A stretch of DNA of 54,283 bases from the NCBI RefSeq assembly GCF_004117855.1, contig NZ_QWBW01000026.1, positions 20,115 through 74,397 of the forward strand, read 5' to 3'. The stretch comes from Modicisalibacter coralii (GTDB taxonomy: Bacteria; Pseudomonadota; Gammaproteobacteria; Pseudomonadales; Halomonadaceae). Positions 4,498-9,554 of the stretch are shown here, piece after piece. Every line of letters begins with the position of its first letter. The first letter of the stretch is position 1. The notes below the pieces were generated by a model, which saw only the letters and a list, made by a program, of their open reading frames with translations, did no database searches and was not told the origin of the DNA. Position numbers and translations under genes: made by a program.

Positions 4498-5256
4498 ATG
4501 AGTGACGATCGCTTGACCGCCGATACCCCCAAGGCCGCCTCTTCCGAGACCGCGGCGTCGCCAGAGAGCAACGAACGGCCGCGCCGCGGCGTGAAGAGCT
4601 ACGTGCTGCGTGCCGGGCGCATGACCGCCGCCCAGACCCGCGGCCTCGAGGAGGTCTGGCCGCGGCTGGGGCTGCGCGTGGCCGACGGGCGCCAGGATCT
4701 CGAGGCCCTGTTCGGGCGCCGCGCGCCGTGCGTGGTGGAGATCGGCTTCGGCATGGGTGCCTCGCTGATCGAGCAGGCCGAACGTCATCCCGAGACCGAC
4801 TTCATCGGTGTCGAGGTGCATGCGCCCGGTGTCGGCAAGCTGCTCGACGAGGCCGACAAGCGCGGGCTCACCAACCTGCGCGTGTACCGCGAGGATGCCC
4901 TCGAGGTGCTGAGCCAGTGCCTGCCCGAGGCCAGCCTCGAAGGGGTGCAGCTGTTCTTCCCCGACCCCTGGCCCAAGAAGAAGCATCACAAGCGGCGCAT
5001 CGTCCAGCCGGCGTTCGTCGCGCTGGTGCGCTCGCGCCTCAGGCCCGGCGGCTGGCTGCACATGGCCACCGACTGGGAGGCCTATGCCGAGCACATGGCC
5101 GAGGTGCTGAGCGAGGCGCCGGGGCTGCGCAACACGGCGCCCGAAGGCCACTACGTGCCGCGTCCCGCCTTCCGTCCGCTGACCAAGTTCGAGACCCGTG
5201 GCGAGAAGCTCGGCCATGGCGTCTGGGATCTGATCTACGAACGCGTCGAGGGCTGA
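4498..5256 (+). CDS. trmB: tRNA (guanine-N7-)-methyltransferase TrmB
   Basis: 252-residue SAM-dependent enzyme forming m7G46 in the variable loop of tRNAs. The SAM-binding glycine motif EIGFGMG is at residues 81-87. The family signature FFPDPWPKKKHHKRR is at 153-167, and the MATDWEAYAEHM block follows. The first 30 residues are a polar, low-complexity extension (ETAASPESNERPRRG) common in TrmB. No strong Shine-Dalgarno is visible before the ATG, so translation may depend on coupling to thiG, whose stop is 15 bases upstream. Downstream there is no plus-strand terminator before the minus-strand sRNA region. Confidence 0.93.
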   Translation: MSDDRLTADTPKAASSETAASPESNERPRRGVKSYVLRAGRMTAAQTRGLEEVWPRLGLRVADGRQDLEALFGRRAPCVVEIGFGMGASLIEQAERHPETDFIGVEVHAPGVGKLLDEADKRGLTNLRVYREDALEVLSQCLPEASLEGVQLFFPDPWPKKKHHKRRIVQPAFVALVRSRLRPGGWLHMATDWEAYAEHMAEVLSEAPGLRNTAPEGHYVPRPAFRPLTKFETRGEKLGHGVWDLIYERVEG

Positions 5257-5310
5257 GCGCCTCGTCTTGCCCCGGGGATGCCCGTACCGCCGCCTGTTTT
5301 CCCGCCCGAC

Positions 5311-5425
5311 AGAAAAGCGGCGACTCCGAGGAGTCGCCGTAAGGACCGTGACTAGCTTGATGAGGAGAAACCATAAGCGGGAACCTGACTTCCTGCTTAG
5401 GCCACGATGTCTGACGAGCATCGTG
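5311..5425 (-). ncRNA. candidate Fur-regulated small RNA, copy A (of a tandem pair)
   Basis: No protein is plausible here, but the minus strand has every part of a small-RNA gene. There is a promoter at 5431-5459, and a first stem CACGATG/CATCGTG (plus positions 5403-5409 and 5419-5425). A second stem TAAGC-GGAA/TTCC-GCTTA displays a GTCAGG loop. A single-stranded tract reads TTTCTCCTCATCAAGC followed by TAGTCACGGTCC. The terminator stem CGGCGACTC/GAGTCGCCG (5318-5339) leads into CTTTTCT. Predicted length is about 115 nt. The same plan recurs at 5523-5642 with compensatory changes. The CTCCTCAT tract is complementary to Shine-Dalgarno sequences, suggesting base-pairing repression. The layout resembles PrrF1/PrrF2 and RyhB, but I do not recognise the primary sequence. 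Confidence 0.72.
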
Positions 5426-5430
5426 TTTAA

Positions 5431-5459
5431 ACAGTAATCATTAGCATTTGAGATGTCAA
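5431..5459 (-). promoter_or_regulatory. sigma70-type promoter with overlapping Fur-like box for sRNA copy A
   Basis: On the minus strand TTGACA (plus 5454-5459) and TACTGT (5431-5436) are separated by exactly 17 bases. The spacer contains AATGCTAATGATTA (plus 5435-5448), close to the core of the Fur consensus AATGATAATCATTA. A repressor bound there would block polymerase, so transcription is expected under iron limitation. Confidence 0.65.
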
Positions 5460-5522
5460 ATCTTTCGCGAGGCTTTTTTGCACTCGCTCGTCGGTTCGTC
5501 GAGAAAGCGGTTGCATGGACAC

Positions 5523-5642
5523 AAAAAGAAGGCGGCGACTCGAGGAGTCGCCGCAAGACCGTGACTAGCTGATGAGGAGATAACCATGGCAGGAACCTGA
5601 CATTCGCTGCGATGGTCGTGTGATGCCTGGCGAGCACCACAC
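5523..5642 (-). ncRNA. candidate Fur-regulated small RNA, copy B (of a tandem pair)
   Basis: Paralogue of the RNA at 5311-5425. The first stem is GTGTGGTG/CATCACAC (plus 5635-5642 and 5618-5625), which differs in sequence from copy A but keeps the pairing. The second stem GCAG-GAA/TTC-CTGC again presents a GTCAGG loop. The unpaired core reads TTATCTCCTCATCAGC then TAGTCACGGTC. The terminator GCGGCGACTC/GAGTCGCCGC (5532-5541, 5545-5554) is followed on the minus strand by CTTCTTTTTG. Predicted length is about 120 nt. The shared core is nearly identical between copies while the 5' part diverges, the pattern expected when the core is the target-pairing region. Targets are unknown. Confidence 0.74.
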
Positions 5643-5647
5643 GGATA

Positions 5648-5676
5648 AAAGTAATGATTCTCATTTTATCTGTCAA
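5648..5676 (-). promoter_or_regulatory. sigma70-type promoter with overlapping Fur box for sRNA copy B
   Basis: Minus-strand TTGACA (plus 5671-5676) and TACTTT (5648-5653) with a 17-base spacer. The spacer holds AATGAGAATCATTA (plus 5652-5665), which matches 13 of 14 bases of the core Fur consensus AATGATAATCATTA. Same geometry as the promoter of copy A, 217 bp away. Confidence 0.72.
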
Positions 5677-5709
5677 GGAGAACGAGAAACATTTTCAACA
5701 AAGCCCGTG

Positions 5710-6624
5710 TCAGCCCGTCAGGCTCAGCCACAGCGGCAGACTGAGCATCGCCAGCAGGGTCTGGCCGGTGATCAGCGCCGCCATCAGCTCGGCATCGCCA
5801 CCCAGCTGCCGGGCGAGGATGTAGGCCGAGGTGGCGGTGGGCAGGGCGGCGAAGAGCAGGGCCACGTCCCGGCTCACCGGATCGAGCCCCGTGAGGGTCG
5901 CCAGGGCGAGAACCAGGGCCGGCATCAGCACCAGCTTGATGGTGTTGGCGGCCCACACGCCGCGATCGATGCGCAGCAGGGCGTGCGGGCGTAGCGCCAC
6001 GCCCACGGCGACCAGCCCCAGCGGCAGGGCGGCACGGCCCAGCAGGCCGACGGCGCGCTCGCTCCAGCCGGGCAGGCCGATGCCGCTGAGGTTGAGCGCG
6101 ATGCCGGCGAGGCAGGCGAGGATCAGCGGATTGCGGGTCAGCGCGGCGAGGCTCTTCGACAGGCTGGACGGGCCCAGGGTGCCGGCGGCGATGAAGCTCG
6201 CCACGCACAGCACGTTGATCGTGGGTACCATCAGCGCGACCGCCACGGCGGCCACGGTGGCGCCGGCCTGCCCGTGCAGCGCCGCCGCGCCGGCGACGCC
6301 TACGTAGGTGTTGAAGCGTAGCGCCCCCTGGAACACCGAGGTGAATGCCGGCGCCGCCAGCGCCAGGTGCTTCTTGAACAGCCACAGCAGCGCAGAAAAG
6401 CCGCCGATGCCGCCCAGCAGGGCAATGGCCACCCGGACCACGGGAACCTGCGAGACATCGGCGGTGGCCAGGGTGGCGACCAGCATGGCGGGAAACAGCA
6501 GGAAGTAGATCAGCCGCTCCATGACCGGCCAGAAGTCCGCCGAGGGCAGGCGACGCCAGCCGAGCACGGCGCCCAGCAGAATCAGCAGGAAGAGGGGACC
6601 CAGAGCGTCCTGGACGCCGGACAT
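5710..6624 (-). CDS. AEC-family transporter
   Basis: 304-residue inner-membrane protein of the auxin efflux carrier / malonate permease-like family (AEC). About ten hydrophobic segments are arranged as two five-helix halves, with the family's NTYVGVAGAAALHG and VALMVPTINVLCV stretches near the middle of the first half. In bacteria such carriers move dicarboxylates or other small organic anions, but the substrate here cannot be told. AAGGAGAG precedes the ATG at 6624 on the minus strand. The gene ends 34 bp before the Fur-box promoter of sRNA copy B on the same strand, and readthrough into the sRNA pair cannot be excluded because no terminator is seen between them. Confidence 0.82.
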   Translation of the reverse strand: MSGVQDALGPLFLLILLGAVLGWRRLPSADFWPVMERLIYFLLFPAMLVATLATADVSQVPVVRVAIALLGGIGGFSALLWLFKKHLALAAPAFTSVFQGALRFNTYVGVAGAAALHGQAGATVAAVAVALMVPTINVLCVASFIAAGTLGPSSLSKSLAALTRNPLILACLAGIALNLSGIGLPGWSERAVGLLGRAALPLGLVAVGVALRPHALLRIDRGVWAANTIKLVLMPALVLALATLTGLDPVSRDVALLFAALPTATSAYILARQLGGDAELMAALITGQTLLAMLSLPLWLSLTG

Positions 6625-9450: not shown

Positions 9451-9541
9451 GAGCCACGAGCCACGAGCCACGAGCCACGAGCCACGAGCCACGAGCCACG
9501 AGCCACGAGCCACGAGCCACGAGCCACGAGCCACGAGCCAC
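9451..9541. repeat. 13-copy perfect tandem heptamer array (GAGCCAC)n
   Basis: Thirteen uninterrupted, identical 7-bp units of GAGCCAC followed by two more bases of the next unit. The array has no start codon or ribosome site and lies between convergent TRAP genes. Perfect short tandem arrays of this kind arise by slipped-strand replication and vary in copy number between strains. The unit is read as GTGGCTC on the other strand. No CRISPR-like spacing is present. Confidence 0.95.
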
Positions 9542-9554
9542 GATCGAGAGACTA

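Follow-up and report, generated by a model that had tools for sequence, protein, structure and literature searches.

A tandem pair of candidate Fur-regulated small RNAs of the PrrF lineage in Modicisalibacter coralii and its relatives among the Halomonadaceae

Two units lying in tandem on the minus strand of a 54,283-nucleotide stretch of Modicisalibacter coralii DNA (hereafter the window, meaning the whole stretch analysed) are, judged from their sequence, very probably trans-acting, Fur-repressed and Hfq-assisted iron-sparing small RNAs (sRNAs) of the PrrF lineage. The best-supported reading is that of paralogous, structure-conserved tandem sRNAs, probably under Fur control, that would repress iron-using proteins. 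Descriptions of PrrF come mainly from Pseudomonas, and the units form a distant branch of this known family. The branch is notable for its breadth, for its apparently repeated tandem duplication, and for an arm of the second stem-loop (SL2) that matches sodB.

Architecture and predicted structure of the two units

The two units, copies A and B, are each about 120 nt long and are offset by 216-217 bp. Downstream of them lies a convergent gene, which we take to be trmB, encoding the tRNA m7G46 methyltransferase, and upstream, on the same strand as the sRNAs, a gene presumably encoding an AEC-type transporter. The features of the locus are as follows, with Fur-like boxes scored against the 19-mer that we took as the Fur consensus, GATAATGATAATCATTATC.

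4498..5256, plus strand: ORF taken to be trmB, convergent and conserved neighbour
5307..5428, minus strand: sRNA copy B, covariance-model span (R3, 79.9 bits; RF00444, 48.0 bits over 5309-5459)
5311..5339, minus strand: copy B intrinsic terminator with a weak T tract (pattern scan and fold)
5344..5370, minus strand: copy B targeting core, TTTCTCCTCATCAAGCTAGTCACGGTC (alignment)
5371..5401, minus strand: copy B SL2 (single-strand fold)
5403..5425, minus strand: copy B first stem-loop, SL1 (single-strand fold)
5431..5459, minus strand: copy B promoter, TTGACA at 5454-5459, N17 spacer and TACTGT at 5431-5436 (read from sequence)
5433..5451, minus strand: copy B Fur-like box, 12/19 to the consensus (3 of 100 shuffles as good)
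5522..5644, minus strand: sRNA copy A, covariance-model span (R3, 109.1 bits; RF00444, 52.4 bits over 5524-5676)
5523..5554, minus strand: copy A intrinsic terminator (pattern scan and fold)
5557..5582, minus strand: copy A targeting core, single-stranded, TATCTCCTCATCAGCTAGTCACGGTC (alignment and fold)
5584..5615, minus strand: copy A SL2, CCAT-GCAG-GAAT / GTTC-CTGC-ATGG with loop GTCAG (fold and covariation)
5618..5642, minus strand: copy A SL1 (single-strand fold and covariation over 37 copies)
5648..5676, minus strand: copy A promoter, TTGACA at 5671-5676, N17 spacer and TACTTT at 5648-5653 (read from sequence)
5650..5668, minus strand: copy A Fur-like box, 14/19 to the consensus (1 of 100 shuffles as good)
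5710..6624, minus strand: ORF taken to be the AEC-type transporter gene, upstream and conserved neighbour

A first-pass annotation, made from the letters alone, had described two minus-strand units sharing a promoter, a Fur-like box, SL1, an SL2 with GTCAGG at its loop, a core and a terminator, and this shared design was recovered from the sequence. It had also assigned each copy a GC-rich intrinsic terminator with a T tract. A pattern scan recovered the terminators of both copies (three found, against 0.8 expected), but the T tract of copy B, CTTTTCTGT, is weak. Neither copy's promoter was recovered in the region by a strict promoter scan. The proposed Fur-like box in the spacer of each promoter scored above shuffles and lies mostly within the spacer; by sequence match (14/19 and 12/19) both copies resemble PrrF in having a putative Fur box in a sigma-70 promoter.

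A BLAST search with copy B and its promoter gave matches in 34 of 58 genomes, the own genome included. These loci yielded 39 copies. Two diverged ones (L022 minus 1094 and L027 plus 1929) were set aside, and the other 37, of which two are the window copies and 35 come from relatives, were aligned. The motif TTG[AC] lies 31-32 nt ahead of the aligned start in 35 of the 37. The best 19-mer Fur match averaged 13.7/19 over these copies, against 10.0 in dinucleotide shuffles, and overlapped the promoter spacer in 29 of them; for three copies the match was equalled by 8-24 of 100 shuffles. For the Cobetia-, Halotalea- and Carnimonas-type copies (L022, L032 and L033) the highest-scoring Fur-like box is found immediately upstream of the -35 element and not in the spacer.

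Folded alone, both copies adopt SL1, SL2, an open core and a terminator, with z scores of -5.20 for copy A and -4.93 for copy B and none of 200 shuffles as good. The core is unpaired at 24 of 24 positions in copy A and at 21 of 25 in copy B, and more than half of it is paired in the single-sequence folds of 5 of the 37 copies. The SL1 stem is GTGTGGTG/CATCACAC in copy A and CACGATG/CATCGTG in copy B, and the covariation that this exchange had led the first-pass annotation to invoke is also found in the stems of relatives. Six of the eight SL1 pairs change on both sides over the 37 copies, where 95.3% of cells are paired, against 27-59% when slid, the structure having been predicted on the same 37-row alignment. 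In a set of 18 copies from relatives, with the window copies excluded, 14 of 28 pairs in three helices change on both sides and 99.4% of cells are paired, against 35-54% when slid; these percentages are biased upward, as 11 rows were admitted by a pairing rule and seven were picked by eye. RNAalifold recovers only SL1 on the raw 37-row alignment, because SL2 and the terminators differ in length; the clean alignment came with the 18-row subset, and covariance model R1 covered SL1 only. Among the 18 rows, 7 of 12 SL2 pairs are invariant, compared with one of eight in SL1 and none of eight in the terminator. Such invariant pairs tell us nothing about structure and point to a second constraint on the sequence of SL2.

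That the region instead acts in cis, as a leader or attenuator for one of its neighbours, or encodes a short protein, we regard as extremely improbable. The downstream trmB is convergent, which leaves nothing to lead, and variation among the copies tracks base pairing. An ATG does occur within 15 nt ahead of the core in 28 of the 37 copies, and a mechanical ORF of 691 aa spans the region; however, the peptides vary in frame and length, with MVISSSS-stop in 14 copies, others running on in another frame, and nine copies lacking an ATG. Both ideas were rejected on the convergent trmB and the lack of a conserved peptide, and these same two observations count in favour of the sRNA reading.

Relationship to PrrF and distribution

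At gathering cut-offs, Rfam returned no match anywhere in the 54-kb window. A permissive search of positions 5250-5750 (501 bases against 4227 families) matched both copies to the PrrF family, RF00444, over model positions 1-150 of 150, with 52.4 bits for copy A (E 4.5e-8) and 48.0 bits for copy B (E 4e-7). These matches are significant but lie under the curated gathering cut-off of 90 bits. No RyhB- or NrrF-type family, nor any other Fur-sRNA family held in Rfam, was listed for this region up to an E value of 10. The comparison with Rfam models that the first-pass annotation had suggested therefore yields PrrF for both copies under permissive settings and no other Fur-sRNA family. The annotation's parallel with the PrrF1/PrrF2 layout is upheld by the end-to-end match and the tandem spacing. 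Its remark that the sequence was not one it recognised has to be revised, as both units appear homologous to PrrF over the whole model and fall only below the Rfam cut-off.

Under stricter filters, RF00444 matched three of 274 genomes of the class (the own genome, one member of the family, and G056, the only one to exceed the cut-off), and the 14 control genomes gave no match. When 20 loci were searched against Rfam at gathering, five passed (L294, L295, L299, L300 and L301), all from family f21, which is probably the Pseudomonadaceae because only f21 loci pass RF00444 at this threshold. Of the other 15 loci, 14 were searched again permissively and all 14 matched PrrF, at 39.9-82.7 bits and so below 90. 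PrrF scores are graded across the order, at 40-75 bits in the Halomonadaceae, 43-83 in other families and 127-152 in f21.

The reverse comparison used R3, a covariance model built from 18 of the 37 aligned copies and none from the window. R3 scores 109.1 bits on copy A and 79.9 bits on copy B, the sole other match listed at E <=1 reaching 10.2 bits. At the RF00444-positive locus of G056 (L062 and L294), this family-only model scores 46.9 bits. The survey of the Halomonadaceae that had been proposed bore the prediction out, with R3 matching 267 of 275 genomes, 250 of 254 of good quality, and 23 of 24 genera. By these matches a putative PrrF-lineage sRNA family is almost universal in the Halomonadaceae, an extension beyond what the first-pass annotation had claimed. 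In the order, 34 of 244 genomes were matched, 24 of them outside the Halomonadaceae, in families f2, f7, f21, f194, f204, f205 and f206. Besides f21, five of these were matched at E <=1.2e-5, and f194 is represented by one weak match (E 8.8e-4). Plasmids gave no match.

These data bear on whether a Fur-regulated sRNA pair like PrrF or RyhB might have arisen here without common descent, which we consider improbable. The match covers the model from position 1 to 150 and takes in GCTA-TCACGGT, a stretch that is not anti-Shine-Dalgarno; the gradation of scores from the Halomonadaceae through other families to f21 suggests that intermediates exist; and R3 recovers RF00444-positive loci. Convergence would nevertheless account for scores under the Rfam PrrF cut-off and for a CTCCTCAT tract much of which is expected in any anti-Shine-Dalgarno sRNA. 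It would also fit a neighbourhood unlike that of P. aeruginosa prrF, the Pseudomonas prrF genes lying in a genomic locus other than the trmB/AEC one.

Several known RNAs invite comparison with the PrrF-lineage sRNAs proposed here. RyhB, NrrF, HrrF and BrrF are Fur-repressed and spare iron through base pairing near ribosome sites; their role is the same, and the permissive Rfam search of the region (to E 10) scores PrrF only. ArrF of Azotobacter, a genus closely related to Pseudomonas, is reportedly an iron-repressed PrrF homologue outside Pseudomonas proper that acts on sodB and feSII, a likeness drawn from its description. Likeness to PrrF1/PrrF2 extends from the full-length model match to the order of parts (Fur-like box, SL1, SL2, core UCUCCUCAUCA-GCUARUCACGGU and terminator), to a spacing of the pair much like the 217-223 bp of f21 genomes with tandem copies, and to overlapping candidate targets (sodB, with ferritin-family and sdh genes). 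The Halomonadaceae RNAs differ in scoring 40-75 bits against a cut-off of 90, in having an SL2 of the form CCAU...AUGG that is complementary to sodB, and in their 5' modules, which are 64% alike in the window copies, whereas PrrF1 and PrrF2 of P. aeruginosa are given as 95% identical (PMC4211561).

Copy number and tandem duplication

An exact-core scan of named genomes, which is blind to the variant core TCTCCCTCTCATTGCTAGTCACGG of genera g11 and g20, gave 76 stretches. Going by their titles, we take all of these to be Halomonadaceae except one unclassified gammaproteobacterial isolate. The trmB gene, the AEC-transporter gene or both lie within the same stretch (<=8 kb) in 65 of the 76, and neither does in 11. 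Copies retrieved from genera g11 and g20, the two largest of the family (L172-L187), carry the variant core in place of TCTCCTCATCA-GCTAGTCACGG, together with an SL1 loop TTGATGAG. As this loop is nearly complementary to the variant core, a kissing contact between the two is possible in the g11 and g20 copies.

Most family genomes have a single R3 match, and at least two were found in 76 of 275 by a hand count that includes weak, distant and non-tandem matches. Tandem pairs are spaced, core to core, at 199 bp in Bisbaumannia, 206 in Halotalea and 207 in Halomonas sp. McH1-25, and more widely in Larsenimonas (321-373), Kushneria avicenniae (344) and Carnimonas (641 bp); they also occur in families f21, f204 and f206. 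L187 holds three copies about 1.3 kb apart, L184 and L185 hold two each, and G487, G528 and G533 have four or five matches.

The 5' modules of paralogues were mutually nearest in four of the seven pairs compared. In the window and in G001 and G010, which are genus-mates, they are only 62-64% alike (64% in the window), compared with 78, 89 and 92% for the part after the core. G029 and G030 show the opposite pattern, with 3' parts 60-73% alike and 5' modules 81-89% alike. The 5' module of copy B is nearest to that of the second copy of G010 (72%), and a tree of these short sequences places copy B on a long branch with the G021 copies, with weak support (81/82), and not with the G010 second copy. 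From these comparisons, tandem duplication probably happened several times. In this genus it seems to be old, with copy B as the duplicate; its 5' module has apparently diverged, and its core and terminator have stayed more alike. Such recurrence makes the reason for the tandem arrangement of prrF in P. aeruginosa testable in harmless halophiles.

PrrH of P. aeruginosa is a heme-regulated transcript that spans both prrF units. The tandem prrF genes and this read-through RNA are described in two papers (PMC2851614 and PMC4211561). A PrrH-like RNA of about 338 nt as the main product of the present locus, with the short RNAs secondary, strikes us as a slim prospect. Each copy retains its own promoter, Fur-like box and terminator, and one match only is found in most family genomes (at least two in 76 of 275). 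In favour of such a product are a tandem spacing of about 200-235 bp that recurs in several genera and other families (though spacings of 321-641 bp occur too), a predicted read-through RNA that folds well (z -5.86) and whose two terminators can pair together, and the precedent of PrrH itself (PMC2851614). In the predicted read-through fold (5307-5644, minus strand) the terminators are near-identical palindromes that pair with one another, and this pairing could either favour or impede termination between the two units.

Proposed mechanism and candidate targets

On the preferred reading of two short PrrF-lineage sRNAs, iron-loaded Fur would sit on the promoter spacer of each copy. When iron is low, sigma-70 polymerase would transcribe RNAs of about 115-120 nt ending at the intrinsic terminators. 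With the help of Hfq, whose gene is present in the own genome (100.9 bits), each sRNA would then pair, through its open core, its linker and the 3' arm of an opened SL2, with ribosome-binding and start regions. The mRNAs concerned would be those for proteins that use or store iron, with sodB, bacterioferritin (bfr) and sdhC as the best candidates. By analogy with PrrF and RyhB, such pairing would block translation and lead to mRNA decay, so that iron is spared. What the sequences themselves show is homology, structure, conservation, a promoter with a Fur-like sequence, and complementarity; from these we infer Fur repression, Hfq dependence, translational block and decay, and the identity of the targets.

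With at most one mismatch allowed, the 11-mer complementary to the core turns up at 26 places in the own genome, compared with nine when the pattern is reversed. The sRNAs account for two of these 26; several others fall on start codons, among them those of genes that we take to encode bacterioferritin and MsrB. Further start regions of the own genome that match the core lie in L061 near 1501-1520, L038 near 1501-1517, L053 and L056, presumably those of msrB and of genes for a periplasmic binding-type protein (13-nt run), an amidohydrolase-like and an oxidoreductase-like protein; msrB is said in one paper to be a RyhB target.

Duplex energies did not separate the candidates from a background that was partly biased by loci chosen for the 11-mer, the best copy ranking 35/71 for sodB, 18/71 for bfr, 31/71 for sdhC and 14/71 for msrB. 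An ungapped complementarity score was then chosen, after the energy test had failed and the data had been seen, and taken over a longer stretch of the sRNA with the SL2 3' arm included. When ranked against 40 window gene starts from a rough gene caller, sodB (13 genomes) had a median rank of 1, bfr (20) of 0 and sdhC (19) of 1. The sodB genomes are 13 from 30 loci, as only MAFELPALPYE-type starts were taken. Mean z was 5.06 for sodB, 3.30 for bfr and 2.37 for sdhC, compared with -0.24 for trmB (50), 0.51 for AEC (50) and 0.38 for thiG (42), control starts that were placed by a rough rule and of which at least one, for trmB, looks misplaced.

Fully shuffled sRNAs reached the observed value, in subsets of 10, in 0 of 60 cases for sodB and bfr and in 2 of 60 for sdhC, and shuffles that keep TCTCCTC did so in 0 of 60 for each. 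The corresponding counts for the controls, full and TCTCCTC-kept, were 15 and 7 for trmB, 1 and 3 for AEC, and 20 and 27 for thiG, with AEC at z 1.4 in the 10-row subset. The first-pass annotation had proposed that the CTCCTCAT tract is complementary to ribosome sites. By the post hoc ungapped score the sRNA is complementary to the start regions of sodB, bfr and sdhC above controls, but duplex energies do not discriminate.

Beyond the CTCCTCAT tract, the SL2 3' arm and the linker appear to match candidate targets. The SL2 3' arm of copy A is complementary to the start region of sodB, which in the window genome reads AGGAGATAACC, a perfect complement of copy A over 11 nt. Among 13 genomes with GGTTA as the sRNA linker, 9 have TAACC or TGACC in sodB, and among 13 with GGTTT, 9 have AAACC or AAATC; this comparison dropped 16 of 42 loci that had no recognisable MAFELP start, and the relatedness of the genomes leaves few independent events. 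Conservation of the targets in general is pseudo-replicated for the same reason. For bfr, the match was poor in 5 of the 20 genomes. Coding constraint may explain part of the sdhC match, because GTGAATAGC is also present in G043, a genome for which R3 lists no sRNA. In the window genome, moreover, sdhC scores best at another site.

Candidate pairing addresses in the sRNA are GGUUA, CUCCUCAUCA and GCUAGUCACGG. A more elaborate proposal, which we put forward tentatively and would not yet favour, is that of a PrrF-lineage sRNA with three addresses, in which GCUAGUCACGG pairs with sdhC, UCUCCUCAUCAGC with bacterioferritin, and the SL2 3' arm with its linker (CUGCCAUGGUUAUCUCCU) with sodB. SL2 would then act as a latch, its lower stem fixed and its linker, GGUUA or GGUUU, co-evolving with sodB. 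If so, the closing arm of SL2 would have to be freed before it could reach the start codon of sodB. Repeated tandem duplication would allow the copies to share out the addresses, and the divergence of SL2 in copy B hints at this.

The breadth of the PrrF lineage provides a comparative set in which fixed parts, such as the core and the sodB-matching arm, can be set against parts that need only to pair. At the standard Rfam cut-off, the Halomonadaceae RNAs that were scored are missed by annotation. Halomonas is an industrial chassis, and cross-talk is possible there between the P. aeruginosa PrrF1 scaffold and a native homologue whose core is much the same. PrrF1 of P. aeruginosa serves as an engineering sRNA scaffold in Halomonas bluephagenesis, a member of the PrrF lineage in a Halomonas host but taken from P. 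aeruginosa, and the accessible parts of these reports do not mention a native homologue (PMC12164125, PMC13101641, PMC13414033). Within the open-access literature, as far as its available text goes and with most subscription papers outside its reach, we found no report of a native PrrF in the Halomonadaceae. Named PrrF targets in P. aeruginosa include sodB, katA and the ferritin-family gene brnD (PMC13104616), which agree with sodB and, in kind, with bfr here.

Elsewhere in the window, positions 9451-9543 hold a perfect tandem array of the 7-mer GAGCCAC, in 13.3 copies, between two genes that we presume to be parts of a TRAP transporter.
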